A stretch of DNA of 64,000 nucleotides from Chloranthus sessilifolius (taxonomy: Eukaryota > Streptophyta > Magnoliopsida > Chloranthales > Chloranthaceae). The notes under the pieces were generated by a model. The model was given only the letters and a program-made list of their open reading frames with translations, had not been told where the DNA came from and did no database searches. The first letter of the stretch is position 1, and each line of letters starts with the position of its first letter. Below, one piece after another: positions 4,431 through 50,845 of this stretch. A program made the translations under genes and the position numbers. The stretch is from assembly GCA_021018995.1 (NCBI GenBank), contig CM037587.1, forward strand, positions 92,127,751 through 92,191,750, in the 5' to 3' direction.

Positions 4431-4479
4431 CACTAATCTTACAAGTAAGATAGGTCTTTCCCCGTCTCCTACTTGTGCC

Positions 4480-26542: not shown

Positions 26543-26885
26543 ATTGCCCTAAAAAATTTCCCATTATCCCGATTTATCCCAATGGAACCCCTTAAGTTAG
26601 AAATATCATAGCCAGGCTTTTTTTTTTTTTTTTGCCTAAACTACCCTTTATATATAAAGGGTTTATACTTACACTATTCCCTTTTTCCCCTTTCTTTCTT
26701 TATTTCTCACGCTGCTTCCCCTTCTTCTTCGTGCAAACCTCACCGACTTCGTGCCAACCTCCCCGACGAAGAAAACGGTAGGGTTTCTCTCTCTCTCACT
26801 GTAAGTCTCTCTATCTCTCAATGATTCTTCTTTCTCTCATTTTTCTTCTTTATTTCTCTACATCAAAATCAGAAATGAGGGTGGC
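26543..26885 (+). repeat. Giant MULE left terminal inverted repeat
   Basis: It reads ATTGCCCTAAAAAATTTCCC, then 'gatttatcccaat', a T-run, 'ctacactattcccttttt'-like text, 'cgacgaagaaaacggtaggg', CT-rich repeats and 'ctctacatcaaaatcagaaatg'. The same order occurs inverted at 50500-50845. The CT-rich stretch followed by gtaagtctct looks like a 5'UTR with a splice donor, so the TIR probably holds promoters for both outward-in genes. Confidence 0.9.
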
Positions 26886-26924
26886 GTTGGTTCCCCTTCT
26901 TTATTTTTTTTCTTCTTTGTAAAC

Positions 26925-29350
26925 TGAGTTAGGGTGGCGCAAACTGACCTAAAGTGGCGCAAACCGACCTAAGGCAGTTTGAAAATAAAGAAATGAGTGA
27001 GATAAACTACCCTGGGTCAGTTTGAAACTACCCTACGTCAGTTTAAAATGTCCTAGGTCAGTTTTAGTCATCACTTAGTGCATTCTACTCTGTAAACGGG
27101 CCTAGGGTGGCGCAAACTGACCTAGAGTGGCACAAACTAACCTAGGGCAGTTTAAAACAAATAAATGGGTGAGATAAACTACCATGGGTCAGTTTGCAAC
27201 TATCCTAGGTCAGTTTGAAACTACCCTAAGTCAGTTTTGGAGATCACCTAATACAGTCTACTCTGTAAACTGACCTAGAGTGGCACAAACTGACCTAAGA
27301 CAGTTTGAAAATAGATAAATAGGTGAGATAAACTACCTTGGGTCAGTTTAAAATGCCCTAGGTCAGTTTTGGTGATCACTTAGTGCAATCTACTCTATAA
27401 ACGGGCCTAGGGTGGCGCAAACTGACCTAAGGAAGTTTAAAACTGATAAATGGGTGAGATAAACTACCCTGGGTCAGTTTGCAACTATCCTAGGTCAGGT
27501 TGAAAATACCCTAGGTCAGTTTTGGAGATTACTTGATACAGTCTACTCTGTAAACTGACCTAGTGTGGCGTAAACTGACCTAGAGTGGCGCAAACTGACC
27601 TAGGGCAGTTTGAAAATAGATAAATGGGTGAGATAAACTACCCTGGGTCAGTTTGAAACTACCTAGGTCAGTTTTGGTGATCACTTAGTGCAATCTACTT
27701 TGTAAATGGGCCTACGGTGGCGCAAACTGACCTAGAGGGGCGCAAACTGACCTATGGCAGTTTAAAACAGATAAATGGGTGAGATAAACTACCATGGGTC
27801 AATTTGCAACTATCCTAGGTCAGTTTGAAACTACCCTAGGTTAATTTTGGAGATCACCGACATGCCTACTCAGAATACCTAGGTAGCAATCCACTAGAGT
27901 GGCGCAAACCGACCTAGGGCAGTTTTGAAAATAGATAAATGGGTGAGATAAACTACCCTGGGTCAGTTCGAAACAACCCTAGGTCAGTTTAAAATACCCT
28001 AGGTTAGTTTTGGTGATCACTTAGTGCAGTCTACTCTGTAAACGGGCCTAGGGTGACACAAACTGACCTAGAGTGGCGTAAACTGACCTAGGGAAGTTTA
28101 AAACAGATAAATGGGTGAGATAAATAACCTTGGGTCAGTTTGAAACAACCCTGGGTCAGTTTGAAACTACCCTAGGCCAGTTTTGGAGATCACACGACAT
28201 CTACTCAGAACTCGACCTAGGGTGGCTAAACCCGACCTAGAGTGACAAACCCACCTAGGTAGTTTGAAAATAGATAAATGGGTCCGGGCTCAAACTATCC
28301 TAGGTCAGTTTAAAATGTCCTAGGACAGTTTTGGTCATCACCTAGTGCATTCTACTCTGTAAACGGGCCTAGAATGGCGTAAACTGACCTAGAGGGGCAC
28401 AAACTGACCTAGGGCAGTTTAAAACTGATAAATGGGTGAGATAAACTACTCTGGGTTAGTTTGAAACTATCATAGGTCAATTTGAAACTACCCTAAGTCA
28501 GTTTTGGAGATCACCGACATCTCAGAACCCGACCTAGGATTGCTAAACCGATCTAGAGTGGCTAAACCCACCTAGACAGGTTTGAAAATAGATAAATGGG
28601 TGAGATAAACTACGGTGGTTTGAAACTACCCTAGGTCGGCTTAAAATGCCTAGGTGGGTTTTGGTGATCACTTAGTGCAATCTACTCAGAACGGGCCTAG
28701 GTGGCAAAACCTCAGATGCTTAAATCGATAAATGGGTGAGATAAACTACCGGTGGGTTTTATCATAGGTGGGTTGAAACTACCCTAGGTCGTTTTGGAGA
28801 TCACCGATACTACTTTTAAACCCACCTAGGGTGGCTAAACCCATTTAGAGTGGCTAAACCCACTCCAGGGCAGTTTTGAAAATAGATAAATTGGTGAGAT
28901 AAACTACCGGTCGGGTTGAAACTACCTAGGTCGTTTAAAGCGCCCCTAGGTGCTTTGGTCATCACCTAGTGCATTCTACTCTGTAAACGGGCCTAGGGTG
29001 GCGCAAACTGACCTAGGGCAGTTTAAAACAGATAAATGGGTGAGATAAACTACCCTGGGTCAGTTTGCAACTATCCTAGGTTAGTTTGAAACTACCCTAG
29101 GTCAGTTCGAAACTACCCTAGGTCAGTTTAAAACGTCCTAGGTCAGTTTTGGTCATCACCTAGTGCATTCTACTCTGTAAACGGGCCTAGGGTGGCGCAA
29201 ACTGACCTAGGACAGTTTAAAACAGATAAATAGGTGAGATAAACTACCCTGGGTCAGTTTGCAACTATCCTAGGTCAGTTTGAAACTACCCTAAGTCAGT
29301 TTGAAACTATCCTAGGTCAGTTTTGGTCATCACCTAGTGTATTCTACTCT
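26925..29350 (+). repeat. Left-arm tandem array of the giant MULE
   Basis: About 14-15 units. Successive 'gtgagataaact' anchors lie at 26997, 27169, 27323, 27454, 27628, 27779, 27943 and 28115, giving spacings of 131-174 bp. Two monomer types alternate. Type A has cgggcctaggg, tttaaaacagataaatggg and ttggagatcacctgatacag. Type B has aactgacctag, tttgaaaatagataaat and ttggtgatcacttagtgcag. Within each, a word of about 13 bp (AAACTGACCTAGG or its inverse) recurs several times. The tracts 28190-28310 and 28510-28970 are unusually divergent. Confidence 0.92.
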
Positions 29351-29459
29351 GTAAATGGTGCAGTCTACACTATATGGTTCAGTAGTTATACCAGTTAATT
29401 TATGATATTAATCTGTTTCCCTTTGTTTTTTAGGTCTTCATAAACCAAGGACTAAAGCA

Positions 29460-32400
29460 ATGGTAATATGTTTAATATTATTTTAATTTTTTTCAATCAT
29501 GATATCTCTTCCATATATGTGAGCATAACCTTCTACTTTTGTTTTTGCTTCTGATAGGCTCATCGTCGTGCCAGATGTACTCGAAATTCAACCGTCTCTC
29601 GCCTTGAGAGATGTCTAAAATATTTGCGGCCCGATTGTGAAGAAAGTATTTCCAATTCTTGCTTTGGTCAATTTGTAGGTGTCAGTGCATTCAAATTTTC
29701 AAATTCCATTTTTACATATGTATTAAGAAGATATAGTGTTCCGAATTTCATAACAATTGGTGAAATTAACTACCAAATCGATCCCATAGACATTGCGTTG
29801 ATTATGAGATTGAGAGTTGTCGGGGACACTTCAATTGAGTTTGACCTACAAGCCATAGAGCCCACGTCTCTTATTAGGAGATTTTTTCCTGGGCATGCGA
29901 CCTCAGTTAACGCTGATGACATAGAGGCTCTTTTTGACCGAGAACTTGGGGTAGAGGACTATGTGAAATTAAAACTCTGTCTCGTTCTTGTAGTTTTTTT
30001 GTTTTCTAATACATCTAATTCATTAGATAAAAAATACATACATCTCGTAGACGACTTAGATAGATTTAATAAGTATCCTTGGGGGCTAGTCGTCTACAAC
30101 ACACTCCTCTCAAAGATGCAAAAGGCCAGTAAATTCAACTTTGAGGCCTTCTACAATATGTATGGATGTGACATTATTGTGCAGGTGAGCCTTATATCAT
30201 TTAATGTTTACCAAATTGAAAGTTTTGTCATATTATCAAATTGAAAGTTTTAATTATTTTAACTTTTGTAGTTGTGGGCGTATGAACATCTAAACTTTAC
30301 TGCCTCGTCCGTAAGAGATGGACCATAGTTTCAGCGATTCAAGCGATGGGAGCACTATCCATTTCCTCCACACATGAGGCAAATGGAGTTAAATTTTGAG
30401 AAATGCAAACTGGTATTAAGACTTACTACAATTCTTGATTTCAAGAATGCAAATATGTGCTCTAGCATAATTTACTTCCCATTTGATTTTGTCTATGTTA
30501 GGCGTCCTTCCAGCTCACCCCTACCCAGGAGGAGTTTAAAATTGAGTTCATTCGTGAGGCTTGGGATAATAGACATCTCATGGTAATTTATTTTTCTTTT
30601 AATATCTCTCATTTGACTATTTAACGCACATATATTTTATCATGTGTTAAAAGCTCATAAGAAGGTCTTCTAGGTTCCTTCGGAGACGGCTGACCCACTT
30701 CTTCCTCTTTCACCGACCTTTTCACCGGCTCGTTTGTTGGAGCATAATGTAAGTAACCGTTTAAGTGATGTTTGGTCTGTTCTGTTAGTTATAAGTTATA
30801 ATATATTATGCTTACTGTCATTGGTAGGTGGAAGTTAGAGGTTTAAAAAGAAAAGAGAGGAAAGAAGAGGGAAAAAAATTTGAGGGAGAGGGGGAGGAAG
30901 GGAAGCAAGAGGGACACCACTCCAGAAGAAAGAAAAGATAAAAGAGAATGAGAAGTCAAGTAGCTCAATTGTTCGCTGAAAATGTTTCGCTTAAGGAAAC
31001 TCAAAAATCTTATGATGAAATCTTACGAAAAAATGAGGTAGAAATGAGAGAGATGCGGGAAACAGTACGAAAAAATGATGTGGACATAAGAGAGCTACGA
31101 GAAATAGTACAAAAAAATTATGTAAAAATGAGAGAGTTGCGTGACAGGCTCACTACGTTAGAGCAAGCAACGAGTGTCAAATCGGTTACCATGCCTGCAG
31201 ATAAGAGCCCCGAGACCAAACACACGGTAGGTCTAAAGGTTATAATCTTTTCACATAAATTTTTTGCGTCTTGGAATTCTATTTGGATGTATTCATCTGT
31301 TCGAAAATAATGATATTTTATTTTTCTTAATTTTGCGAAGCTGGATCCGGTCGCGCAGAGCATGTTGGATTTGAGTGCTCCTATTACGGTAACACATATT
31401 CACATTGTTGATTCCTTTATATAATGTCATCAATTATGTTACATTTTTTTATGTTATACTTTTGATTTCATTAGTATCCAGCTCCTATGACATCGATAGT
31501 GACACCTCATGTGCTGGCAAAGGGGCACAAAGTTGTTGTGATTACCGACTCGAGCACGCAACCATCAAAGAAGGTTAGATGTTCTTTTATGGCCTACTCT
31601 AGTATAATTTATTTTTTACGCATCATTCTCATCTAGTAAATAATATTTTCGCATCGATTTTAGATCGAAGGAGAAGTTCTAAAGGAAATTGAGAAACGGG
31701 TTAGGCCACCGTCAAAATATTTGAGGCCCCCTTTTGTGAGCGTCGACGATAGAGGGAGGATTGTGGAGGAGCTAACATCGACTTCCACCCTTGTTGACCA
31801 CACCCCCCTTCGGCCTTTGACAGATGAGGAGGAGGTCTTCCTATCAAGCCTGATTAATATACCACACCCTCCAATGTAAGTAGCACGATATCGTTAAGAA
31901 AGTTATTTCTACCCTTAAGAAAGTCATGCCTAACATAAGATCTCAATCATTGTAGGAAAGGATGCATACGTATTGGGGGCCATAGAGTTCAGTATGCGGA
32001 CTTGCAGTGTACTTTTGGGAAAAATTGGTTGAGCAGCGATGTAAGTCTCCCTCTTTGTAGCATATTCCTCCTCTTAGTAGCATCTATTAAAACTTATGTG
32101 TATATGAACTAATTAATAATGTTGACTGATGTAGGTTCTAAACCCACCTTTGATATTAATGAAAAATCGGGAGTGTGAACATTCAAATCTCTTCAAAAGA
32201 TGTTACTTTATGGATTCATATTTTATGGTAATAGGCACACTATCGGCATATTTTTCCTTTTCTTCCACCTATTTTACTTTGCATGTTAGTAATGTTTAAG
32301 AATTTATCGTAATGCAGAATATGCTACAATCAGAGTTACTTTCATTTAGAAAGTGGGCAAAGAAACAAGCAGCCGATGTATCAAAACTAGACCCGGTTGC

Positions 32401-33074
32401 ACTCCTAAAAGCTTATGCCTGGTCTACTAACCTTTGGGCACCACTAAAAGATGTTGAGTTTCTAGAGAGCGATATGGTAACTTTCTCCATTATATGTATG
32501 ATTTGATCTTGACGTTTCACATACCCTAATTTCTAGAGAATAACTTAAGTTACAAATATGTCTAGGTATTCATATGCCTTAAGAAGCATACCGCGCACTG
32601 GGCTCTAGCTATTTGTAAACCTCGCTCCCACATGATCGAAGTTCTCGATAGTATGGAAAACGTCTTACAGTATTGGAAAATCGAGCTGAAGTGTTTGGTA
32701 ATCCTACCATCTTTGATGAACTAAACTTTCCTACTACATACGTCCATAGTGATTAATATATCATATTTTGGTATGTTATATTGTATGTAGAAGGACGGTC
32801 TCTCCAAGCTATTATTTATGTCAAAGCGAGAAGAAATTCCTTACTCATCGCTTGATTGGTGGGAGGTGAGTCAGATAAATGATCGGCCCATGCAGAGCAC
32901 CCGTAATAAGCATGATTGCGGATATTTCATGATCATGTACATGAACTACCTATATAGGGGTTTACCTTTCACATTTTCTCAGGTAAATTCAATAACTATT
33001 ATAAACTAATTAAAATTATGGAACTTCATCATTGAACCTTATGTTCGTTTCTCTACATACAGGATGACATGTAA
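29460..33074 (+). pseudogene. MULE-borne Ulp1/SENP-type (C48) cysteine protease gene, 15 exons, two in-frame stops
   Basis: The predicted exons join in one frame with GT-AG sites. ATG sits alone in exon 1 (29460-29462). The others are 29558-30184, 30272-30412, 30502-30582, 30674-30748, 30828-31226, 31341-31388, 31475-31573, 31664-31875, 31956-32040, 32135-32227, 32318-32476, 32566-32697, 32791-32982 and 33063-33074 (DDM-stop). The product is about 785 residues. Its N-terminal domain is DUF1985/plant-mobile-domain-like (FGQFVGVSAFKFS, then DIALIMRLRVVG). A charged, heptad-like coiled coil lies in exon 6. The C-terminal Ulp1 domain has His (HTAHWAL), Asp (EVLDSM), Gln and Cys (QSTRNKHDCGYF). 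Such enzymes remove SUMO-like tags. TAG in exon 3 (near 30327) and TAA in exon 6 (near 30939) are the only breaks seen. Confidence 0.8.
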
Positions 33075-33079
33075 TATGT

Positions 33080-35060
33080 TAGGAAGAGGGTTGCAGTTCA
33101 GATTGGAAAGGGTGTGGCGCTGCAATAGAGGTACCCAATCCCTAATCGAAACCAATATTTTTGTTTTTCGATTTCAGCTATATTTTAGCGAGATTTGAAG
33201 GCTTCTATATAGTACTATATGTTAGACATCATTTTTTAGAATTTATGCATGATTCCATAGGTTGAATGATTACTTATTTGGATTCATTGAGATTCGATGG
33301 AATAGATTTTGCTTTTGAAAATTTTTGTTGAATTGTATATATTTGGGCTTTGATGAAGTTGTCTAACATTAGAGCCTTTTGATTGATTTTCCAAGGAATT
33401 GTTTTTACTGATGCTCAAATTATTAATTAAAAAAAAGAGGCAGAAACCATAAGATTTAATATATAGATTTGATAGAATTTTGAAGTCTCAAAAGTCTAAT
33501 TTATAAGCAATTTTTGAACTCAAGTTCCTATTTTGCAAATAGACTTTGAGCCTCAAGAAGTGAAGATTTATAGCCAACCCGTTTTGAGTTCTAATAATTC
33601 AATGGGTGAGAGGGTGTTGAGACTTTAAAATCTCATTTATATTGATTGGTTTGGATTGGTTTTGTTTAAATAGATATTTGCCCCAAAGGTGTTTGAATTA
33701 TATTGATTGGCTTGATACTCAAAGGAGGCAATTTTGGCTCACGCCAGTAAAGAGTTTGATAAACTAATCGAAGCCTCCTGAAACTTGGTTGCCAAAACCC
33801 TTTACAAAGGGTCTAGGCAAATTCTTCTTACTTAGAGGTTCTCACCTAAGGTGTTTGGATTGCTGCTGTGGATGGGAGTGCTCGACAGGTTCTGCACTTG
33901 GAGGCTTTAGCAATTAGTCGTGAGGTTCAAAGGATGCTGGAGAGGCTGCACTTTGACAGGTTTGAGTTACATATCCAACTAGTTGTTGACAGGTTTGGTG
34001 CTGAAGCCAAATGCAGTTCGAGAGGTTTAGAGAAATGCAGGGAGCTACTAGTCGACATGTTGGCTAAAGCTTGGAGTGAAATCTCGAGAGGATTGAAGGC
34101 AGATTGGTCGACAGGTTTGAGCTTTTGAATAGTCGATAGGTTCAGCTGGTTTCAGAGGTTCCTATCATGAGGATTGAGGGTGCAAGGACAGACCTCCTTG
34201 ACAAGTTCCATGGGAGGTTTGGCTGGAGATGTCAACAGCTTTAAGGGGATGCAAATGCTGGTCGACAGGTTTGAAACATCTGCTCGAGATGTTGGTTGGA
34301 GGGAACTCAAAGCTGTCGCCAAGTGCTAGTATGCTGCTGTAGTTTAATAACTCGAATCTGCTGAGGCTCTACTTGACCGGATGCTGTGCCAATGCATGGA
34401 CTTGCTGCATGGGTGTTCTCGACAGATTTATTGCTGCAATTGCCCTTTTAATGGTGCAACTTGATAGGTGTTGTAGTTGCAAAAGCTGCTGCAGTTGTTA
34501 CTTGATGGTGCACTCGACAGATTTGGAGCATTGGCTGAAGGTGTTGAGTGTGCAGCCATTTCTTTGACAGGTTTGTGAAACTGCTGCTGCATAGAATATG
34601 CTCGATAGGTTAGAACTTGGAGTACAAGTGCTGATAGGACTGAACTACAGCTTGAAAGGATGAGGAGTTCAACTCGAGATGTGCTTAATGCAGTTGCTTC
34701 TAGTGTGCAACTAAATGTTGGGCTGCTTTGGGTGGTCTGTTGCTGCATGGGTGCAAAGTGGATTCAGCAATCCACTAAAGAGGTGCTGCTAAAGTTGTTT
34801 AAAGAATTTTCTTTTCCAGAGGTGGTGCCCACCATCAATGAAGAATTTTTTTTTTAGCTGTTTAAAGAATCCAATCTGCTGATATTAATATCAACTGTTC
34901 TTTTTAGTGGCTGATGTTGAAGTTCATCAACCGGATGACGAACATCCACTTAGAGTGAGACATGTGATAAACTGTTCTTTTTAAGTAGCAACACTTTGAT
35001 AAATTATAACTACCATCATGCTTTACATTATTCACCGCAATACTTTTGATCAATTATAAC
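33080..35060. other. Non-coding stretch with recurrent TCGACAGG words
   Basis: No gene is recognised. Between about 33883 and 34680 the words ctcgacagg, gtcgacaggttt, tttgacagg and close variants occur some fifteen times at irregular spacing, in GC-balanced text unlike its surroundings. An 86-codon open frame (33868-34128) and a Cys-rich one (34373-34567) fall inside and look like by-products of the repeats. It may be part of an LTR or another retroelement control region. Confidence 0.45.
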
Positions 35061-35129
35061 TACCATCATGCTTTATTTTGAAATATACTCATTTAATATG
35101 CATATTATTGGTAAATTATATCAAACCCG

Positions 35130-35971
35130 TATCAAAGTTATTAACATTACAATATTCCGTTACATTCAAATGCTAAATCCTGTCAATGAATTTGTGCTTG
35201 TTATCTCACGATCTGCATTAAATCATCAATCTAGAAATCTTGAACAATGGATTTCGCAAAAAAGAAAGATATATCAACCACATTTTACGTTATCAATTGA
35301 TGGCCTATTCCAATTATACGAAGCCGTTGATAATGAATTCCATGACATGAGTTTTGGTTTTCTTGCAGAACTTGGATTAAAAACCATACTTATGAGCACA
35401 CCACCGACAAACATATATCACATGGTATCTCTCCCCCTCCCCCCCTTTTTCTCAATTTCTGTTGTTTTCATTTTTTTGGAAATTCAATACTACTCATTTT
35501 CTAATGAATACTTGGTTCTTGATTTTCCTTCTCAGGATAGTGTAAAATTTTCAAAGCTTGTTACATGGGCGACATCTACTGCTTTACAGTCAAACTCTAA
35601 ACAGACATCTCTGCTTAATGAATCTGATCATCTGACAATTTTGTCAGAGGAAGGAAAAAGTGAAGATTCTATGATTTCTAAGCTTTTACGTTGGGTAATA
35701 GCTTCAGTAATTCTTGGAAGGATTTCAAGCATATCTAGAGGAATAAATGCCTCATTTCCTCCAAAAAGATCAAAGATAGAGACTCTACAGTCCCTTTTGG
35801 AGCATGTCAAGAGACGGGGCCAAAGGTGGGAGAACAATTTTAATATTGATGAGGTACTTGCTGTTAACATTTTGTACTTACAACAACTTCTTGGGATTAA
35901 TTGTGGAGTGCTTCCATCAGTCATATCAGCACTTTGTCTATTGCTTCTTTCCGATACCACCAATTTACAAG
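35130..35971 (+). pseudogene. URB1: URB1 fragment: two exons of nucleolar pre-ribosomal-associated protein 1, C-terminal domain
   Basis: Exon A ends at 35424 (ATG|gtatct). It reads LNPVNEFVLVISRSALNH, QWISQKRKIYQPHFTLS and LGLKTILMSTPP. Exon B runs 35536-35971 and reads EDSMISKLLRWVIASVILG and then LYLQQLLGINCGVLPSVISA. These match the conserved C-terminal region of plant URB1, a large (>2000-residue) protein of 60S ribosome assembly in the nucleolus. Only about 240 residues are present and neither the start nor the following exons were found. Both exons are open and in frame with each other. Position inside a MULE, between its ULP and transposase genes, indicates capture. Confidence 0.8.
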
Positions 35972-36019
35972 GTTCCAAAATTTTGTTATTTATTAGAAGT
36001 TTTGATTTCCTTTGAATGA

Positions 36020-37435
36020 TTCCTTGCATCTATATGTCTCTAAAAATTGAACACTTTGAAAACCTCCAGAATTTTGTTAGTTTATTAAATTTTCTAAGTG
36101 ATATATTTTGTTAGTTTATTAAATTTTCTACATACTTGCTCCTGGGCTTGCTTCATGTAACTTATGGAATTGCCTTATCTTCAAAAGAAATTATTGTAAG
36201 ATGCATAAACCAAGTATGTAGCAATTTATGGAACATATCAACTAGTTCCTCACGTTCACCTTCTGAACCCCTGTTGACAATGTCCTAAAATTTATACATC
36301 ACTAACAAATAGTATAGCCAATTTTTAAATGCTGAGACTCTGCCAAGTTGTCACGTTCTGAATCTAGCTTGATTTGGGTTTGACTCTGCCAAATCATTTG
36401 CTCTGGATGCATGAACTCAGTTTGCATTTATTAAACTTGGCTAAGCTTTTACTGCTTCATGAAACGAGGTTTCGATGTGGGTCAAATCCCTTGCAGGACT
36501 AAGATTTAAAATCCTGAGTATAGATCCACTCAATTGGTGTATTCATTACTTGAAGGAGGTAATGCTACATAATTTTGGTACAATTTAGAGGAATACCCCA
36601 AAGCCCCTCAATACAACTATTTATAATATATTTGGAAACCAAACCCAAATTCTATAGTAACATATTAAACTGACACTAATTAACATAAAAAAAAAATTAA
36701 AATCATCCTTAATCCCATTTTAATGATAACCTTTAAAAGAACTCCTAAATGCAGTTTTAATAATCTGTCTAAAGAGAAAATATAAATGTTGAGGAGATAT
36801 ATGTAGGCTTTCGAATAGTGCAAATAAGACACTTAAATAAAGTCCGGCTATACACTTTAATAACTACCTGCTATTACTTCAATTTTGGTGAGAAAATTTA
36901 AGTTTACAATTTAAGTAGCATGACACATGATTATTAGACAGTATTATTTTTCTTTTGAACAGGTGCACCGTGGATGAAATCCATAATTGAACAGTCTTAA
37001 TTAGTAAAAATGATTTAACGTACTGAAAGTTGCATAGCATCTGATTTTATTTTCTCATTTCTTTTTGTGGCAGGCCTATTTAAAGTTGGAATCATAACTT
37101 TTAATATGTCCTTGAATATAAATTACTCAGGCCTGATGCATCACACAACAGAACTTGCAGAACACATAGCACACGAGTTAGAAGTTAATCCACATCAGGT
37201 GAAGTAATTTCTGTTCCGTTTTTAAGGAATGTTGGACATTATTACGAATGCTCCCTAGTTGGTTTAAAATTATTGTAGTAGCCATGGGTATATAATTTCT
37301 ATAGTTCAGTCCATGTTGAAGCTAGTCATACTTATTGATGCTGATAACTAAATGTATGGTTCCAGGTCCATTTGTTAAATTTTACTAGCAATGGTAATGG
37401 TTCTTTCATAAGATGGGTCATATTTCCAGAAGGGT
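36020..37435. other. AT-rich stretch, one possible exon
   Basis: No gene is recognised. At 37131-37198, between ctcag| and |gtgaag, one frame reads LMHHTTELAEHIAHELEV then NPHQ. It is protein-like and flanked by usable splice sites, but I cannot assign it. It could be another captured exon. Confidence 0.3.
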
Positions 37436-37439
37436 CTGC

Positions 37440-38785
37440 TGATTACCTACTGCAGTCTACTTTATAAACTGACCTAGGGTGGTGCAAACTGACCTAGAGT
37501 GGCACAAACTGACCTAGGACAGTTTAAAACAGATAAATAGGTGAGATAAACTACCATGGGTCAGTTTGAAATAATCCTGGGTCAGTTTAAAATGCCCTAG
37601 GTCAGTTTTGGTGATCACTTAGTGCAGTCTACTCTGTAAACGGGCTTAGGGTGGCGCAAATTGACCTAGGACAGTTTAAAACTGATAAATGGGTGAGATA
37701 AACTACCCTGGGTCAGTTTGCAACTATCATAGGTCAGTTTGAAACTACCCTAGGTCAGTTTTGGAGATCACCTGATACAATCTACTCTTTAAACTGACCT
37801 AGGGTGGCGCAAACTGACCTAGAGTGGCGCAAACTGACCTAGGACAGTTTGAAAATAGATAAATTGGTGAGATAAACTACCCTGGGTCAGTTCGAAACTA
37901 CCCTAGGTCAGTTTAAAGCGTCCTAGGTCAGTTTTGGTCATCACCTAGTGCATTCTACTCTGTAAACGGGCCTAGGGTGGCGTAAACTGACCTAGAGGGG
38001 CGTAAACTGACCTAGGAGAGTTTAAAACAGATAAATGGGTAAGATAAACTACCATGGGTCAGTTTGCAGCTATCCTAGGTCAGTTTGAAACTATCCTAGG
38101 TCAGTTTTGGAGATCACCTGATACAGTCTACTCTGTAAACTGACCTAGGGTGGCGCAAATTGACCTAGAGTAGCGCAAACTGACCTAGGACAGTTCAAAA
38201 ATAGATAAATGGGTGAGATAAACTACACTGAGTCAGTTTGAAACTATCCTAGGTCAGTTTAAAATGCCCTAGGTTAGTTTTGGTGATCACTTAGTGCAGT
38301 CTACTCTGTAAATGGGCCTAGGGTGGTATAAACTGACCTAGAGGGGCGCAAACTGACCTAGGGCAGTTTAAAATAGATAAATGGGTGAGATAAACTACCC
38401 TGGGTCAGTTTGCAACTATCCTACGTCAATTTGAAACTACCTTAGGTCAGTTTTGGAGATCACCTGATACAATCTACTCTGTAAACTGACCTAGGGTTGC
38501 GCAAACTGACCTAGGACAGTTTGAAAATAGATAAATGGGTGAGATAAACTACCTTGGGTCAGTTTGAAACTACCCTAGGTCAGTTTAAAATGCCCTAGGT
38601 CGGTTTTGGTGATCACTTAGTGCAGTCTACTCTGTAAACGGGCCTAGGGTGGCGCAAACTGACCTAGAGTGGCGCAAACTGACTTAGGGCAGTTTAAAAC
38701 AGATAAATGGGTGAGATAAACTACCCTGGGTCAGTTTGAAACAACCCTGAGTCAGTTTAAAATGCCCTAGGTCAGTTTGTTTGAT
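37440..38785 (+). repeat. Internal tandem array of the giant MULE
   Basis: Eight units with anchors at 37541, 37693, 37867, 38039, 38213, 38385, 38539 and 38711 (spacings 152-174 bp). The monomers are the same as in the arms and in the same orientation as the left arm. It separates the URB1 fragment from the CDC7 and BASS fragments. It may be a leftover arm of a second, related MULE or a recombination product. Confidence 0.92.
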
Positions 38786-39412: not shown

Positions 39413-39662
39413 CTTCTTGTCTCCCTCTTTACATGGCACAGATTTGAAAGTGGTGGGAGTCAAAGAGGAAATGTGTTTTCAACTTTCTCCTTATTATTTT
39501 TGCTTATTGATTTACATTTCTGTGCATGCTATCTGATGTTCATGAGAACTTAGTAAGTTGAATTAAAAACCTTTTAGGCACTAGAACCTGTCAAAGGCTT
39601 ATTGTTACAGATTTACATGAAAAAATCAGCTTTTAGTAGGATTGATGGAGTGATACTTGGGA

Positions 39663-39845
39663 TAGGGCTGTCAAAGAGCCAAGCCAGCTTGAAAGCCCAA
39701 TCCGGCTCTGCCAGAGAAAAATGAAGCTTCAGTCGGTTTAAAAGTTGAGCCCAGCTAACTTTTGAAAGCTCAAGTAGAGCTGAGTTTGGACTGAGGCACC
39801 TTAAAGGCTTAAACATGGCTCGGCTCGACTTTATAAAAAGCATTA
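39663..39845 (+). mobile_element. Remnant of a hAT-type MITE
   Basis: It begins TAGGGCTGTCAAAGAGCC, a start typical of plant hAT elements, and continues with 'gagccaagccagctt', 'ggctcggctcgact' words. A right end was not found. Confidence 0.4.
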
Positions 39846-39999
39846 TTTCTAATTTGTAATTTATTATGATATATAATTACATATTTTTATTTCTAATTTG
39901 TAACTAATTTTCCTCCTAGCTTCTAGCTTAGAATTGTCCTTACTTTTCCTCTTTTTAGAGCAATCTTTCGTTGTGTATTAACACATCAGGAGTTGTCAG

Positions 40000-40325
40000 G
40001 TTCTGTGCAAAGCTGAAGCAAATTATCTGGGGATGTTCCTACCAGCTCTTGAGTGAAGTGAGCCAGAATGAGAGAATAGTTGAAATGTTGACTACTCTTT
40101 TTCCCGTGTGGGTATGTATAACTTGCACACGTTAAAATGTTGGTGTGGAAATCTGTACTTGTATATTTGACAATTTAAAATCATTCAAGTTTAAATATCA
40201 TTCAGCCGAAATAATTTTTCTGAATGTTCACTTGTATATTTGGCAGGTCATGTTGAGCACACTTATTGGAATATACAAACCATCTGCTGTAATGATTGGG
40301 CACACTTATTGGAATTCATAAAGAA
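40000..40325 (+). pseudogene. BASS-family (bile acid:sodium symporter-like) transporter fragment
   Basis: The first exon (40000-40112, donor gtatgt) shows in three successive frames CKAEAN, then SGDVPTSS, then SEVSQNERIVEMLTTLFPVW. The second (from 40247) reads VMLSTLIGIYKPSAV and then loses similarity. This is the junction of the plastid-targeting region and first membrane segment of plant chloroplast BASS1/BASS2-type carriers ('...ERIVE.LTTLFP.WV.LGT..GIYKPS.V'). At least two small indels shift the frame within exon 1, so it is a decayed fragment. A 15-bp repeat (cacacttattggaat) occurs twice at its end, near the breakpoint. Confidence 0.75.
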
Positions 40326-40339
40326 GAAGTTGGGGTGAA

Positions 40340-43300
40340 AGGGATCAGACGGAGGCTTTGATTTGTTTGCGGATTTGTATATTATCTTTTGTATTGTTGT
40401 AGTGGCCAACATGTAAGACATGAAATCTTATAGACACCAAATGAATCGATAAAGTTATTTTGAATGGAAAGCCAGCTCAAAATGTCTTGCTCTCCCCAAG
40501 TTCCCATACTTTATTTTTTTTTATTGTTTGTGGTCACTGTATGCTGATTACCATGCCACAAAGTAAGATGCTATTATCATTGAATGAGATGGCCGGTGTG
40601 CTTAGTTGGCTATAATTGTGGAGAATTCAGTGTTCACCAAAATAAAATTTGAGCCAAGTGGCTTTAGCTATGCCATTGTCAGCTATGCCCTTGTGATCAC
40701 ATTTTCTTTTTAATTCTCTCATTATATTGTTGGGCTTATAACTATCTTTTAAAAAATAAGATTTCACACCATAAAACACACCACCTTATTAATTGTCGTT
40801 GAAAGACAAGACGCAACCATACCGAGTACCCTTGGCGTTACCAGAAGACTGTTGATTCGATAGTGTCTTGCTTAATTGAGTGTTTAATTGAGCCTCGCTT
40901 TGGGCCCAAATGTGATTGATTAATTTCTTCTGTACTCTAAGGGCCTCTTGCTCAATGGTAAGGATTTTCCCTTTCTTAATGAATTACTTATTGTTATTCA
41001 TTTAAAAAAAAAAAATACAGTCCACAATATTGGTGGATCCTTGTGATATTTAGCCACATTTAAGAGTGTCCTATAATGGTTTGCTTTAGGAGTAACAAAA
41101 GATGACAGTATTTTGTGTTAGGTGGTTGGGCTTGAGCACCAAGGATGATGTTTGAGTAAACCATCTTATCGATTCCGATTGTCCACACCAAATTTATCTT
41201 TCGGATTGGACATTGTTACCACCTTATTCCATGATGAAATGCATGCATCAAAGAAAGGTTCCTAACCATTCATTTATATATAGGTTCTTGGTTGCTGTTA
41301 GAGAGCCTCTCTCAATATGAAATTTGTGCCATTACAAGATGATTAGGCTCTGAGAAAGGCTAATCTTCTACTGGTTGGAGCAACCAATGTCATCATGTAC
41401 CATATAATCTCAGTACACCTAGGATCTTTACTCTCCGTTCCGCATTTGAATGAAGCCCAGATCCAACTGTTTCTTTTATGCATGCATTTCATGATAGACT
41501 AACTGTTTCTTTTATAGACTACAATCAGTCAAAAGTGTAGTTAGACAATCAGATGGACTGTAAGTAGCTTCCAAATATATTAAATTTTTAATTAGGTTCT
41601 TGAACCCAGCTTTCAAATATATAGAACTGATTGGGCACCATTGTTCACACTTCACATGGCATGATTCATCACTGTACCCTGTCGATGGACCATTGCCCAA
41701 AAATTACTTTGCTATCATAACTTTGACCTTCCAATCAATGGTTTAAACTGGATTATTAAAATGTGTTATTGACAACAGTTGCCATTTACCTGCAAAATAT
41801 GCATATGATCGGTTGGTTAAAGATTTTCTGATCAACACAGTTGTGGTTGATAAGTAGACATCAAATTCAACATTTGAGACCAACAGATGCTTATAATAGT
41901 TGGACTGAGATGGTTTAGGTCGTTGAACCACCTCTCCATACATGTGGAAAAGACACATAAATCTAGACCATCCACTGATCAGATGAATGATCATTTAATC
42001 TATTGTCATTTGATAATCCCAATTCATCCCTAACGTAGAAACAGTAACTTTAGTCATCAATATCAACTTTGATTGTAGTTTTAGGAACTTAATTGTGACT
42101 ATAGTTTATCATAAACATTTTAAAAATAGATCTGTCAGCAGGTACTATAATTGTGACTTAATTCTGCAGACTTTTTGCTCATATTGATTAAGGCTGCTAG
42201 AAATCCTAAGCCTCATATGACAGCGAAAAAATTCACAGTTGTAACATAAAAACAGGAATGTAGCATTTTGGTCAAAGACATCAGCAGTTCCTAATAAATA
42301 CACCTAATATCCTAACAGGGCACACCCAATCCAATTGTATATGGAGATGAGAATATCGCATCGCAGAGCATTCTATTCCCTTGGAGATTCAAATCTAAAA
42401 TGACCAGCCATGTGATCCATAGCGCTAATGTACTCTGGACTCAGTCGATCAATGCCCTAAAGAGAGCATACGCTTGTCTCCTTGGAACTGGTCACTTCAT
42501 ACCTTGGGGCCACTTTGGACATTGTGAGCATTCCCATAAAATCACTATCACTTTCGCAATCCATCAGCTCCTTCTAATCATTGTGAGCATCACCAAATTA
42601 AGTATTGTAGCCATCTAACCTGCATGAATAAAATAAAATTTGAGAATGACATTTCAGATAGTTTGAGCATGAAATTATTTAGCTCCTAATCACATGACAA
42701 CTGTTGGGGAGAAGAGATGAAACTTTGAACACATTCTCATACCTGCAATACAATATTCAATGAAGTAATAAATTTAAAGCAGTGCAAATATTGATAACAA
42801 TAACATATATGCATTTCGCCACCATAGACTAGTTCGAAACTGAACCAGCAGACATTATAAATAGCAGATCATAACTGCACTAGCGATAAAACATCATGCG
42901 TAGAACTAAAATCCTGCTCCTTGAGTCCCTGAGTAGATCAAATACGAAAGATCTTTTTTGAGATTGGGTATCCGACCTCTAAGAGAACCCAACTAAGTTC
43001 CCGGGTAATACCAAAGATCATTATGCACTTGTAGGTAAGTAATAAAAATTAGGATTAAATATCTCAACTTTTAAGTTTCTTCATCTCATAGCATATTAAC
43101 CAATACATGATACTTGATTGAACCACTAACTCAGCCCTCTAAAGAAATTACCACTTGGGTCATTAATGTAAAAACTAGAAAGGACAACATACATCACTTT
43201 CACCAATTCTAAGAATCTCTTCTATATGCAGTTAACTCCTCCCACAATGATTCTCCTAAGGGTGATCCTACTTAGCATCATCAATTTACTCCTAATTCTG

Positions 43301-44600
43301 CCTTTCCACCACAATCAATTCTTATGCGACATTTCTAATATTCTAAATGATTCACCTGTAGTAACTAGTAAGTGATTCAAGAACTTAGTAGCATGTCTAA
43401 ATACCTGGATACTTTCGTATACTAATTTTAAATACCTAGATACTTCTATATGTTAGTTTCAAATACTCTGTTCCAGAATTTAACCAGTTCAGAACTAAAC
43501 TAGTTTCTGTTCAGGTTGCAGTGGAAGTTACCTTTAGAAGCGTGACTATAGAACCTGCTCAACATGGCTAGTCCACCAACCCATCACATATGATGGAGTT
43601 TATGCTAAAGCTTGCCATGCTTTATGATTTTAGTATGAATCTAATTTTAGTAACTTGAACCGAAGTAGAAAATGAAATTCATTATTACTTTTTCTAAAAA
43701 TCAGAAATACAATAAATGAGTGCACTACAATAGATCATCTTTTTAATAACTGGGATAGAGGATGATGAAGGATTATTGAAGACTACAAAACTGAAGAAAA
43801 ATTAATGGTTCTTTTTTTTTGTGTAAATATTATGGGTCTTCTGAGAAGTCGGAACTCGGAAGTTGATATTTTGTATAGCCTAAACACAAGGGGTTCATCA
43901 CTGATCAATTCATCTCTATCTAATATGATGTAGATCGAGTAACAGGAATGGAATCTTCAAAATTGAGAGAGAAAATGGAATAGAAATCTAAATAGAAAGC
44001 TTTAAGAAAAGGAAATGATACGATTTGGAGGTGTTGATGGGCTGGATCTTTGGACGCCCAAAGAAGCAAGGTGAATTACCTTAATTCGCTGAAATTTCTA
44101 CAAGCCATGCATATTAAAAGACACATATTCACAAATTAGCTACTGATAATATCAAGAGGAATTCCTGCATTATGTATATGGTAAAAGTAATTTGGGTCAT
44201 GATCTGCAATTCATAGTATTCAAAAAAAAAGTTCTTCAATTCAATTTACTGTGGACCATTTTTCAGCTTGAACGGCCAATGGATCTTCAAAAGCTTTGAA
44301 GCATAAGTTAGTCCCAAGGGAAGATATTATACCAAGAAATTGGGGCAGCTGCTCCTTGCATTCAAAGAGTTACCTCGGTTTGACTCCTATCAAATTTATT
44401 TACTTTGCATGTTATCATATGAATGTAAGGGTTACCTTTGTTTGATGCTTATAAAAACTGAACTCCATCAGTACAGAGCATAAGTTGGCCGCCTCAATAG
44501 CTTTAATATAACTCTGTGAGACCTAAAAGCCCACGTGACACTATTGCATCTGACATTGGAACCTCTGAACAAATAAATAATAGAAAACATTAAATTGTTA
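40340..44600. other. Long stretch without a recognisable gene, inside the giant MULE
   Basis: No coding region could be supported on either strand. An open frame of 72 codons at 42400-42618 (+) has no recognised similarity. Near 42955-43015 there is a truncated copy of the SINE 3' body seen at 22100 (gattgggtatccgacctctaagag). The rest is AT-rich. Confidence 0.5.
42955..43015 (-). mobile_element. Truncated SINE 3' body
   Basis: ttgggtatccgacctctaag, then caactaagttcccggg, matches the body of the SINE at 22088-22291 (cctgggtatccgggcctctt...). The A/B-box part is missing. Confidence 0.5.
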
Positions 44601-44668
44601 TAGGTTATTCTAGATAAACAAACGAGAGATAAAATGCATAACAGATAGTGGAAGCAAATAAGAGTCCG

Positions 44669-47568
44669 TCAAGAAACTTTTAAAGTGACTATGTAGGCAA
44701 TGTGTACTTCTGTAGGAAAAATGTTACTTTTAGGGGGTCTTCTACAACTCTTTCGGTTGTGACCAACCTCCCTACAATTGGCGCATCGCCGGCATGCGAC
44801 CACCTCAGCGACACTCTTTCTTCTCAATTTTTTAGGTCTTCCTGTTGGTACCCTAGGAACTGGTGGCATAACTATTCTTTTCTCCTTAGGTTCGACCCAC
44901 TTATCACTACTCAGAGTGGCATGAATAATAGGCTCGTAAGTCTTACGGTACCTATCCACCGTGAACCAATCTTGAACGTATAAATAGGGACTTGTGCAAC
45001 GATTATTTATGGCTGCCAATACATGTTTACACGGGGCGCTCAAAATTTCAAATTGCCGACAAGAGCACGTGCGTTTTCTCAGATGCACGGTATTTCTAGT
45101 ATCTCCAACAATTAAAAATTCATCAAAATCAGAGGGAAATATAGTATATGTGAACGACGCTCTATCATTTTCTTTAAGAAACTTTTCGGTCTTTGGCGTC
45201 ATAATTGTGGTCCACTTTTCGGCCTCATTCCTTCTATTGTAAAAATATTCCATCACCTTCTTATGTGTACTTTCTATTAGACCAATGATCGGTAGCTCCC
45301 TAGCATCTTTCTATTAGACCAATGATCGATAGCCCAATGTTGTTTTCCAATCTGAACAATGTAGTCATACGCTCCTTCAGATATCTTCTGAATTTTACTC
45401 ATTTCTTTATCAAATTCAATTTCAGTATACGCATAACATGCTTTCTTTGTGTGTTCTATTACAAGTTCATTCTTGTACATACTCTTCAAATTTTTCTCAA
45501 TGTGATATAAACAATACCCATGCGAAGCATACCGAAAGACTTTTGGCACTGCTTGAGTAAGACCTTTTTGTCAATCACTTAGGATTACTACGCGTGAATC
45601 GTATCCTATGATCTCTGCCAATCCATGTAAAAAATATTTCCAAGAACTCCTGTTCTCTGATTCCACTACGGCAAAACACAACGGAAATATCCTCTTATTC
45701 CCATCAATGTCGGTGGCTATGAGGAGCGAAGCTCTATACCTTCCAAATAAATGTGTACCATCAACTGAAATAAGTGGTCGCAAGTACTTCCTAAATGAAT
45801 CAATGCATGGCCCAAATGCCCAAAAGATTCTCAAGAATGCATCGTCTTCCTTCGTCTGTAGGTATATAAGGCATTGAGGATCCACGCGTTTCAGTTCCAC
45901 CATATATGATGGGAGCAATTTATAAGACTCCTTCCAACTACCTCTAATATCATTGAGGGCGATCTCTTTTACACGCAAAGCCCTCTGATATCCTGTATTG
46001 GTTTGAAATCGCGTTCTCACATCACACATTATCTTCTTGGGAGTGTAGTTGCTATTTTCTTTTAGCTAGTCCTTCGCAATTGACGCCATCCAAAAACTTG
46101 TAGCTTGACAATGGATCTGTTGTCTATCTCGTGGCAACCCACAAGTATGCTATGGAGTAAATCTTTTAATTTTAAAATAATCGGAGTCTCTCATCTTCGA
46201 AGCACGTATACGCCAAGAGCATCCATCTTCACGACATCTGGCAGCAACAACCTTCCGATTAGTTTTGGTCGGTTTAATTTCGAAGTTCCCATGCATTGCA
46301 AATTCCCGCAAAGAATTATGGAATGATTTCTTCCCAGTCAATATTTGGTTTAAATTGAGAACACCATCTACGTCAGGAACACCGCTCACTTGTTGTGTCT
46401 CATCCACCACATATATGTCTTCAATAATAGGAAGCATGTCGTTTGTGTTACAAACGTGGGATTCTGTAATATCAGTCCCTCGATCATTGTGCCTTGGTTC
46501 GCTATCAGGAGGTGTACCTCTACTTTCTCTTTCGTCAAGTTCACCCCCCCTACACTCACTACAGTTCTCTGCATTGACGGTCCATATGCTGGCATCTATA
46601 CTACCTCCCTTAGAGAGTGCAGTAGCTTTCTCATTCCCAACTGTACCGATATTATATGCATTGCCCTCGAACACACCTCTCAGATCTGCGCTTATTTTTT
46701 CGTTGGCTGGATCGATGGAGACATGCACTAAAGGAGGGTCGACTTCATTTTCACTATCTGAAACACATGTCACACCAACATGCCTGTTGAAGGACGGATA
46801 ATCAAATATCAACTTAATAAATTTAATTTACGAGATAATCTCAATACTATCGACTTAGTAGATTGAATTAACCTTCCATGTGAGGACGAAGTAGTAGTGG
46901 GCAGAGTAGTTACCGTTGCCATGAATGGGGATGAAAAAGTATGCTCTTCGTTCCTACATCAATGTAAATAAAATAAATTAATTCAACAAACACAAACCAA
47001 CAAAGACATAAGTATATAAGCGAACTAATCAATACCGATCATAAATATATTACGTACCTTCTAATATAAAGATTATTCAGGTGACGGGAGTTTGACATAC
47101 AGTAGTCGATGCACTTACAGTTGTGTTACGTTGAGTCTCAAACTCCTCTGATAGGCATGTAACGGGAAGGGACTCGGTGGGTGTTAAGCTGTTAGAGAAA
47201 TCAGTCAAAGGATCAGTATGACAATCATTGTCTTGTTCGAAAGGAGCTTTTTGTACGTAAATACATATACTATACCCAACAAACTGTGGATAATGCATCA
47301 TCTCATGCACGCCATTGTCATCATCAAGGTCTATCACATACTTTCTCCCCCAACCTATGGCATTACGTAGCATACTTCAGTATTGTATCTTTGATCCGAA
47401 TTTTTGTCACCTCATATATTTTGACAATTAAATCCTCTAAACTTATCTCTCTTTCTACAACCAATACTTTCCTTTTTTCGGCCTCGTACACCAGTTTTGT
47501 AGAGTCAGAATCATTTAACCGTCCATCATAAAAGCATAATAAGTAAACTTATCTTCGGATGTAGCCAT
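44669..47568 (-). pseudogene. MuDR/MURA-type transposase of the giant MULE, decayed
   Basis: Read on the minus strand, a PB1-like N-terminal segment starts at ATG 47568 and is frameshifted near 47515 and 47375. Next come an acidic linker, the MuDR N-terminal domain (SFHNSLREFAMHGNFEIK and RCREDGCSWRIRASKM, about 46320-46190) and HTCG. The MULE catalytic domain follows (SVDGTHLFGRY near 45735, then VILSD-stop-QKG near 45570). A SWIM zinc finger (CSCRQFEILSAPCKH, 45075-45020) and a CCHC knuckle (CANCREVGH...C) close the protein. In-frame stops lie after FTP, after KD and in the D2 motif. The region that should hold the catalytic Glu is replaced by a short duplication (gaccaatgatcg twice at 45278-45327). 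Confidence 0.88.
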
Positions 47569-47759
47569 CGTAGATATCTACAAACAATGATTGTGACCAA
47601 AATAAAATTAAGTTAGACTAATCACTAGAGAGAGTCTAACTACATTAAAAATTATCAAATAGGATAACCAAACTTACAACATAGACTGCACTAGGTGACC
47701 GCCAACTCCATAGAAAGTATATTTTTCAACTCATAATACGTTAAAGAATACTCAAGAAT

Positions 47760-50490
47760 AGGTAGAACACTTCTAGGTCAGTTTACGGTCACTCTAAGAC
47801 AGTTTGCGCCACTCTAGGTTAGTTTGCGCCACCCTAGGTCAGTTTACAGAGTAGACTGCATCAGGTGATCTCAAAAACTGACCTAGGGTAGTTTCGAATT
47901 GACCTAGGATAGTTGCCAACTGACCCAGGATAGTTTATCCCACCCATTTATCAGTTTTAAACTGCCCTAGGTCAGTTTGCGCCCCTCTAGGTCAGTTTGC
48001 GCCACCCTAGGCCCGTTTACAGAGTAGACTGCACTAAGTGATCACCAAAACTAACCTAGGGCATTTTAAACTGACCTAGGGTAGTTTCAAACTGACCCAG
48101 GATAGTTTATCTCACCCATTTATCTATTTTCAAACTGCCCTAGGTCAGTTTGCGTCACCCTAGGTCAGTTTACAGAGTAGACTGTATTAGGTGATCTCCA
48201 AAACTGACCTAAGGTAGTTTCAAATTGACCTAGGATAGTTGCAAACTGACCCAGGGTAGTTTATCTCACCCATTTATCAGTTTTAAGCGCCCAGGTGGGT
48301 TTCCTCTAGGTTAGTTTGCGCCACCCTAGGCCCGTTTACAGAGTAGATTGCACTAAGTAATCACCAAAACTAACCTAGGGCATTTTAAACTGACTTAGGG
48401 TAGTTTCAAACTGACCGAGAGTAGTTTATCTCACCCATTTATCTATTTTCAAACTGTCCTAGGTCAGTTTGCGTCACCGTAAGTCAGTTTACAGAGTAGA
48501 CAATATCAGGTGATCTCCAAAACTGACCTAGGGTAGTTTCAAATTGACCTAGGATAGTTGTAAACTGACCCAGGGTAGTTTATCTCACCCATTTATCAGT
48601 TTTAAACTGCCCTAGGTCAGTTTGCACCCCTCTAGGTCAGTTTGCGCCATCCTAGGCCCGTTTACAGAGTAGATTGCACTAAGTGATCACTAAAATTGAC
48701 CTAGGGCATTTTAAACTGACCTAGGGTAGTTTCAAACTGACCTAGGGTAGTTTATCTCACCCATTTATCTATTTTCAAACTGCCCTAGGTCAGTTTGCGC
48801 CACTCTACGTCAGTTTGCGCCACCCTAGGTCAGTTTACAGAGTAGATTGTATCAGGTGATTACCAAAACTGACCTAGGATAGTTGCAAACTGACCCAGGG
48901 TAGTTTATCTCACCCATTTATCAGTTTTAAACTGCCCTAGGTCAGTTTGCGCCCCTCTAGGTCAGTTTGCGCCACCCTAGGCCCGTTTACAGAGTAGAAT
49001 GCACTAGGTGATGACCAAAACTGACCTAGGACGTTTTAAACTGACCTAGGGTAGTTTTGAACTGACCCAGGGTAGTTTATCTCACCCATTTATCTATTTT
49101 CAAACTGCCCTAGGTCAGTTTGCGCCACTCTAGGTCAGTCTGCGCCACCCTAGGTCAGTTTACAGAGAAGACGGTATCAGGTGATCTCTAAAACTGACCT
49201 AGGATAGTTTTAAATTAACCTAGGATAGTTGCAAACTGACCTAGGGTAGTTTATCTCACCCATTTATCAGTTTTAAACTGCCCTAGGTTAGTTTGCGCCA
49301 CCCTAGGCCCGTTACTAGTAGAGTAGGCATGCTAAGTGATCGCAAAAGCGACCTAGGCATTTTAAACTCGACCTCTGAGTTTTAAATTCACCAATTTATC
49401 AATTTTCAAACTGCCCTAGGTCAATTTGCGCCACTCTAGGTCAGTTTGCGCCACCCTAGGTCAGTTTACAGAGTAGACTGTATCAGGTGAACTCCAAAAC
49501 TGACCTAGAGTAGTTTCAAATTGACCTAGGATAGTTGCAAATTGACCCAGGGTAGTTTATCTCACCCATATATCAGTTTTAAACTGCCCTAGGTCAGTTT
49601 GCGCCCCTCTAGGTCAGTTTGCGCCACCTTAGGCCCGTTTACAAAGTAGAATGCAGTAGGTGATGACCAAAATTGACCTAGGACGTTTTAAACTGACCTA
49701 GGGTAGTTTCGAACTGACCCAGGGAAGTTTATCTCACCCATTTATCTATTTTCAAACTGCCCTAGGTCTATTTGCGCCACTCTGGTCGGGTTTGCCACCT
49801 AGGTCGATTCTGAGTAAGTATGTCGGTGATTACCAAAACTGACCTAGGGCATTTTAAACTGACCTAGGGTAGTTTCAAACTGACTTAGGGTAGTTTATCT
49901 CACCCATTTATCGATTTTAAAAGCGCCTAGGTGGGTTTAGCCCCTCTTGGGTTTAGCCACCTGAGCCCGTTCTGAGAGTAGCGCACTAAGTGATCACCAA
50001 AACTGACCTAGGGCATTTTAAACTGACCTAGGGTAGTTTCAAACTAACCCAGAGCAGTTTATCTCACCAATTTATCTATTTTCAAACTGTCCTATGTCAG
50101 TTTGCGCCACTCTAGGTCGGCTTTGCAACCTAGGTCGATTCTGAGTAGGCATGTCGGTGATCTCCAAAACTGACCTAGGATAATTTCAAAGTGACCTAGG
50201 ATAGTTGCAAACTGACCCAGGGTAGTTTATCTCACCCATTTATCTGTTTTAAACTGCCCTAGGTCAGTTTGCGCTACTCTAGGTCAGTTTGTGCTATCCT
50301 AGATCAGTTTACAGAGTAGAATGCACTAGGTGATGACTAAAACTGACCTAGGGTAGTTTTTCTCCCTCATTTCTCTATTTTCAAACTGCCCTAGGTCAGT
50401 TTGCGCCACTCTAGGTCTGTTTGCGCCACCCTAAGTCAGTTTACAGAGAAGACTGCACCAGGTGGCCCAACCATAACATGAAAAAAATAA
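47760..50490 (-). repeat. Right-arm tandem array of the giant MULE
   Basis: About 16-17 units, inverted relative to the left arm. 'cacccattt' anchors near 47941, 48113, 48267 and 48432 give spacings of 172, 154 and 165 bp, matching the alternation seen on the left. Divergent tracts occur at 49310-49400, 49780-49830, 49915-49990 and 50115-50160, with the same odd words as in the left arm (ggtgggttt, ctgagtaggcatgtcgg). Confidence 0.92.
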
Positions 50491-50499
50491 CCTAGGGCA

Positions 50500-50845
50500 T
50501 CTTATCTAACCCATTTCTGATTTTGATGTAGAGAAATGAAGAAGAAAAATGAGAGGAAGAAGAATCATTGAGAGAGATAGAGAGACTTACAATGAGAGAG
50601 AGAAGCCCTACCGTTTTCTTCGTCGGGGAGTTGGCACGAAGTCGGCAAGATTTGCACGAAGAAGAAGGGGAACTAGCGTGAGAAAGAAAGGAAGAGAGGG
50701 GAAAAAGGGAATAGTGTAGGTTTAAACCTTTTATATATGAAGGGCATTTTAGGCTAAAAAAATAAAAAAGGCCTTGCTATGGTATTTCTAACTTAAGGGG
50801 TTCGATTGGGATAAATCAGGATAATGGGGGATTTTTTAGGGCAAT
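50500..50845 (-). repeat. Giant MULE right terminal inverted repeat
   Basis: The inverse of 26543-26885. On the minus strand it starts ATTGCCCTAAAAAATCCCCC and contains the 'cgacgaagaaaacggtaggg' and CT-rich blocks. It would supply the promoter for the transposase on the minus strand. Confidence 0.9.

Follow-up and report, generated by a model that had tools for sequence, protein, structure and literature searches.

The element at positions 26543 to 50845 of the window (the whole 64,000-nucleotide stretch of DNA analysed here, located on contig C4 of a 2.17-Gb genome in 32 contigs) belongs to a multicopy family of giant MULEs with terminal inverted repeats (TIRs); it is a decayed copy and a mosaic. 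The host-gene fragments it carries, from URB1 and CDC7, were probably in the family already when this copy acquired its current structure. The original prediction of a ULP-bearing MULE with host-gene fragments was borne out, as TIRs, a Ulp1 gene, a MURA transposase, and URB1 and CDC7 pieces were all found.

The evidence is best explained by the following course of events. A URB1 piece would have entered an element at a site that is unbroken in other copies, with short matches between element and donor at each join. The filled form occurs repeatedly in the genome, as does a CDC7 piece that has a common internal join of its own. The captures may have been template switches made during the repair of a break inside the element. 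In the lineage of the window copy, 1.26 kb of a URB1-bearing element would have been replaced by a 4-kb block derived from a sister, containing an arm array and truncated CDC7. Copies would have been moved by MURA from intact members. Less certainly, the DUF1985-Ulp1 protein may act on the arm motif in the manner of VANC in Arabidopsis.

Ends and architecture of the element

The MULE superfamily is characterized by long TIRs beginning with G and by target-site duplications of 9 bp. The inverted ends predicted at 26543 and 50845 are present, with 83% identity over 488 columns when the array is included and 88.2% identity over the outer ~350 bp. Each TIR extends 5 bp beyond these positions, giving the tips GGATG (left) and GGCCA (right). 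The features of the element are as follows.

26538 to 26899, + strand: left terminal inverted repeat (L-type), tip GGATGATTGCCC
26911 to 29323, + strand: left arm repeat array, higher-order units built of ~20-21 bp motifs, the 12-mer present 24 times
29558 to 30244, + strand: DUF1985-containing open frame (domain at 29879-30112), making up the 5' part of the Ulp1 gene region
30942 to 31310, + strand: open frame with 42-bp repeats, within the Ulp1 gene region
32548 to 32994, + strand: Ulp1 (Peptidase_C48) catalytic domain, frame interrupted, E 3.7e-7
33532 to 35246, + strand: module A, common to copies C4b (whole) and C6a (34059-35246)
35249 to 36592, + strand: captured URB1 fragment, parent 1501-2371 and 3536-3999
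36587 to 37439, + strand: module B, beginning at the URB1 3' capture join
37440 to 41489, + strand: 4.05-kb block (middle array, CDC7 block, ~762 bp), where C6a has 1.26 kb
37466 to 38778, + strand (left-arm orientation): middle repeat array, 24 copies of the 12-mer, not in the six fetched sisters
38790 to 39835, + strand: captured CDC7 fragment, exons 39109-39222 and 39314-39376, parent L045 293-618 joined to 1481-1947
41490 to 44369, + strand: module C, also in C6a, C4b and, gapped, C11
44365 to 44369, no strand: 5-bp overlap at a join; ~2 kb extra at this point in C6a, C4b and C11
44669 to 46827, - strand: MURA transposase, frame interrupted, DBD 46332-46168, MULE 45771-45490, SWIM 45091-45002
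47772 to 50464, - strand: right arm repeat array in inverted orientation, the 12-mer present 40 times
50471 to 50850, - strand: right terminal inverted repeat (R-type), tip GGCCA

An Rfam scan of the window gave no matches at the gathering score. Outside the element, an RVT_2 (Copia-type reverse transcriptase) match lies to its right at 55248-55466, and several long + frames in 690-19152 resemble non-LTR reverse transcriptases, as judged by eye.

Sister copies

A genome search with the left TIR, which had been suggested with the original prediction as a way of finding further copies, gave 320 candidate sites. Scoring of 40 of these revealed at least seven other +/- TIR pairs 20-35 kb apart (by eye), and six TIR-paired sisters were fetched: C6a, C11, C4b, C7a, C8 and C7b. 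They measure 20.7-29.6 kb end to end; we estimate 19-24 kb for the seven copies, window included, when the LTR-like repeat shared by C8 and C7b is subtracted. TIRs, arms, ULP and MURA are common to the window and all six sisters, with ULP and MURA at 91-94% relative to the window. A GG tip was found at 12 of the 14 ends, the exceptions being the left ends of C11 and C8.

In a tree of 15 TIRs, the window, C6a and C11 group together by their left TIRs in a single clade (0.997), and their right TIRs belong to the other type. As C6a and C11, two of the six sisters, have this asymmetric pair too, the pairing of the window's ends is a lineage trait, in agreement with the predicted pairing of the two TIRs in one element.

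The window element has no target-site duplication (7 of 9 positions mismatched). Exact and informative 9-bp duplications surround C7a and C4b. Those of C11, C8 and C6a are exact only inside TA repeats, where 5 of 42 cross-pairings match too, and that of C7b is out of phase. Given the absent duplication, the two ends of the window copy might come from two insertions. (TA)n runs flank four of the seven copies (C6a, C11, C8 and C7b), which suggests a target preference.

Several peculiarities of individual sisters were also observed. The left end of C11, together with 30 bp of outer flank, occurs twice, 1532 bp apart (C11:5861957 and 5863489), either through a tandem duplication that included flanking DNA or as an assembly artefact. 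A repeat whose duplicated ends measure ~1.75 kb, by its appearance an LTR retrotransposon, interrupts both C8 and C7b, and C7b has a solo-like copy of it in its ULP region. The C7b TIRs are 100% identical over ~350 bp despite the LTR-like insertions in that copy, possibly reflecting recent homogenisation.

The Ulp1 gene and the MURA transposase

Both of the predicted protein-coding genes were recovered when frames were read with X at stops: the Ulp1-type protease by the Peptidase_C48 domain on the + strand, and the transposase by its MULE (E 8e-16), DBD_Tnp_Mut (1.3e-10) and SWIM (1.3e-7) domains on the - strand. The two genes therefore lie in opposite orientations inside the TIRs. The DUF1985 match (E 2.5e-8) reached 34.5 bits against a curated cut-off of 35.1, which is 0.6 bits below it. 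In a weak alignment with SENP2, the positions of the Ulp1 His, Asp and Cys correspond (best PDB E 0.0015; 3.2 bits for the His/Asp stretch alone), and the closest protein match of MURA, from Tasmannia lanceolata, is at 34%. According to the ORF listing, none of the seven copies has an uninterrupted MURA or ULP frame, and introns may be behind some of the breaks. MURA transposes MULEs, and we presume this role for intact MURA in the present family.

Repeat arrays and a candidate anti-silencing system

The predicted repeat-array arms were found inside both TIRs, and a third, internal array at 37466-38778 had been overlooked. The array 12-mer CTAGGTCAGTTT has 88 copies in the window, and 88 of 88 lie within the arrays. 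A chance origin of the 12-mer was ruled out by this count, as 0.01 copies would be expected.

VANC proteins have DUF1985 and are described as binding short motifs in tandem repeats of their own elements and as causing methylation to be lost (PMC5735166, PMC10398659). According to a 2026 review, VANC genes that carry Ulp1 belong to the non-TIR Vandal/Kaonashi elements (PMC13317346). The family described here can be read as VANC-like because a TIR-MULE carries a DUF1985-Ulp1 protein plus motif-dense arms. By this analogy, a form of self-protection in which the DUF1985-Ulp1 protein binds the arm motif and counteracts DNA methylation is plausible.

There is about an even chance that the arrays are merely expanded TIR or transposase-binding repeats, and that the DUF1985-Ulp1 protein is otherwise employed, with no VANC-like anti-silencing. 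Repeated TIR and sub-terminal motifs are indeed reported for MULEs and other DNA transposons (PMC3310237, PMC8277862), including repetitive TIRs in FB4 (PMC8277862); however, the occurrence of a DUF1985 protein together with dense, short-motif, noncoding tandem arrays resembles the VANDAL arrangement. We tentatively propose, as a possibility, a TIR-MULE lineage with its own VANC-like pair of DUF1985-Ulp1 protein and target-motif arms, in which the same arrays, being liable to breaks and switches, would drive both the uptake of host-gene pieces and the swapping of cargo blocks among elements. Should the arm motif indeed be recognised by the DUF1985-Ulp1 protein, anti-silencing directed at specific sequences would not be confined to the non-TIR VANDALs of Arabidopsis but would occur in TIR elements of another plant as well.

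Capture of URB1

The URB1 fragment had been predicted on the + strand, and a protein search with it matched 36 proteins at E<=0.001 (best 45% over 76% of the query); a PDB sequence search gave nothing useful. Its coding parts lie within about 35251-36000, intron included. The parental locus is on C6, and the window piece has 95.6-97.0% DNA identity to it. Alignment of the fragment to this parent, proposed at the outset, allowed the joins and the divergence to be mapped.

A search for URB1 loci returned 18 candidates, all of which were scored: the window, one parent, 11 filled loci and 5 loci with the flanking module only. The filled loci hold the main URB1 part without query 166-300, and the unfilled loci hold the flanking module alone (query 1-97). 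With 40 of the 320 TIR candidates scored, a TIR was found within 18 kb of at least 10 of the 11 filled loci and at least 4 of the 5 unfilled loci; none of the matches listed from the same 40 lay near the URB1 (C6) or CDC7 (C12) parental loci.

At all five loci without the piece, the URB1 site is uninterrupted. C6a and C4b read straight through it, and single base changes are found close to it in C4b and L046. As these loci come from one genome, they may represent loss instead of a primary empty site. A common 5' join at AAGAGAA was present in 7 of the 10 filled loci checked (11 in all), with one base altered in L039; the join is missing from L030, L034 and L035 and has been lost from the window copy. 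The words shared between element and donor are AAGAGAA at the 5' join (C11) and AGAG at the 3' join (window), and the donor positions span 1391 (C11) to 3999 (window).

The window piece lacks parent 2372-3535 and has a scar near 36104-36131 with a 26-bp copy of adjacent sequence, a filler that we interpret as a trace of template switching. The C11 piece lacks parent 1568-1717 and 2295-3625. Because different parts are missing, neither piece is simply derived from the other. Over the longer stretch of each piece, identity to the parent is 95.6% for the window and 91.8-97.9% for the other filled loci, mostly 96.7% or more, with lower values in C11 (95.8%) and L039 (91.8%). Judged from these alignments, the divergence of the window piece may leave room for a separate history. 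The origin of gene-carrying MULEs has been termed perplexing (PMC8277862); for the URB1 capture, the filled and unfilled states, the donor, the joins and a repeated filled lineage are all available in one genome.

Capture of CDC7

The prediction of a CDC7 fragment on the + strand also held. All 15 matches of a protein search were protein kinases (best 85%; 14 plant-named and 2 named CDC7), and two exons could be placed; a PDB sequence search gave borderline matches only, with a best E of 0.017. The parental locus was found on C12 (L045), from which three CDC7 exons within 2.3 kb were fetched. When the fragment was aligned to it, as had been suggested for each piece, the donor join 293-618|1481-1947, with a 4-bp overlap, was seen in the window, C7a, C8 and C7b at 93-96% identity to the parent. 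C8 and C7a have extra CDC7 coding sequence upstream of the point at which the window piece is truncated.

With 40 of 128 candidates scored, a CDC7 block of 1-378 plus ~1200-1481 was found at ten or more loci, each within 1 kb of a URB1 copy; in those ten loci the CDC7 piece is short. At an eleventh URB1 locus (C10:15617022) the same scoring found block 1349-1481 alone, which is not CDC7. As at least ten loci have both genes, co-carriage of URB1 and CDC7 is common in the family, and this pairing is nothing out of the ordinary in this genome.

At the CDC7 parent, a 17.7-kb gap separates neighbouring matched pieces (C12:108760131-108777892), perhaps an intron swollen by insertions. Within the CDC7 block of the window, segments 39830-40293 and 40308-40530 have 83-94% matches to dispersed genome loci and are probably small repeats.

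A mosaic block in the window copy

C6a has the order module B, 1.26 kb (13432-14687), module C, and the window has module B, 4.05 kb, module C. In the 4.05-kb block, the middle array is joined to CDC7 at AGTTTG, and the ~762 bp preceding 41490 had no match among the six fetched copies. The array-CDC7 join was sought in C11, C7a, C8, C7b, L042 and L043 and was found in none of them; non-array sequence precedes CDC7 there. CDC7 lies ahead of URB1 in C11 and after URB1 in the window. This secondary rearrangement, comprising the middle array plus the CDC7 block, is the peculiarity of the window copy itself. We infer that the block is an internal gap filled from a sister element.

The main rival holds that two partial elements lying head to tail were fused by deletion, the left one being TIR-array-ULP-A-URB1-B and the right one array-CDC7-C-MURA-array-TIR. 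No target-site duplication joins the outer ends of the window copy, which favours this rival, and the middle array has the orientation of a left arm, which it would be in the right element. However, the block replaces one continuous stretch of C6a, which under a fusion would be a coincidence. In addition, a search with the left-end TIR gave matches at that end and at the right end only, which means that the middle array has no terminal TIR, and the arrangement of CDC7 followed by module C was not seen in C7a, C8 or C7b. Fusion therefore appears unlikely, and we prefer gap filling from a sister. Gap filling of this kind suggests block replacement as a route by which cargo moves from one element to another, in which case the element that contains a gene piece may not be the one that captured it.

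Which host genes, and captured by which copy

Pieces of three unrelated host genes had been predicted, gathered by the window copy. URB1 and CDC7 fragments are present, but the third, from a BASS transporter, was not found, and the joins shared with many sisters speak against gathering by this copy. For BASS, the SBF family (PF01758) of Pfam had no match at E 0.1 in the three + frames of 29401-37300 and 38700-47800, nor at E 10 in those of 36000-37440, 38780-41500 and 41480-44400, and a PDB sequence search with one + frame of 41480-44400 gave nothing. A BASS fragment in the window element is unsupported by these searches.

Capture of URB1 and CDC7 (and BASS) by the window element itself is highly improbable and was set aside because the URB1 and CDC7 joins are shared with sisters: the window alone holds the query 166-300 stretch missing from the other 11 URB1 loci, and its URB1 piece is slightly farther from the parent than most, but sisters hold the same URB1 donor interval (C11 with 5' parts, parent 1391-1500, that are not in the window), CDC7 coding reaches further in C8 and C7a with the 618|1481 join shared, and BASS was not found in the + frames searched.

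Comparison with known systems

Published accounts exist for each of the features taken singly, namely MULEs with ULP, capture of genes by MULEs, multiple TIRs and the filling of gaps (PMC2528002, PMC3310237, PMC8277862). In the titles and abstract openings of the open-licence PMC literature, no description of the present combination of features was found.

In the Kaonashi elements (KI-MULE/KIU) of Arabidopsis, a gene with a Ulp1 domain is likewise reverse to mudrA (PMC2528002), and KIUs have been described as VANC genes with a Ulp1 domain (PMC13317346). Kaonashi, however, is a non-TIR MULE, whereas the family here has ~350-bp TIRs, long array arms, ~20-kb bodies and unrelated host fragments. 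The ULP-bearing TIR-MULEs of melon, rice and grapevine (CUMULE, Mutavine) combine TIRs with ULP, as here, with ULP in either orientation (PMC2528002); the passages on them in that account mention no URB1 or CDC7 cargo, no uninterrupted capture site and no such motif arrays.

As in Pack-MULEs, host-gene fragments with parents elsewhere lie between MULE TIRs and are repeated in the genome. Pack-TYPE elements are described as non-autonomous (PMC8903248), whereas the copies here retain interrupted transposase and ULP genes. Animal Pack-TIRs, for which gap filling and FoSTeST are discussed, are similar in that their capture joins show microhomology and that FB4 has repetitive TIRs (PMC8277862); the present family differs in being a plant element with its own transposase gene and with an uninterrupted site in several sister copies. 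MULEs with multiple TIRs have extra arm sequence besides the two ends, as here (PMC3310237), but the internal array of the window copy has no terminal TIR and is joined to a gene fragment. Finally, VANDAL elements with VANC combine a DUF1985 protein with short noncoding tandem motifs, as does this family (PMC5735166, PMC10398659), although VANDALs are non-TIR (PMC13317346) and the motifs described for them differ from CTAGGTCAGTTT, whereas the family here has TIRs.
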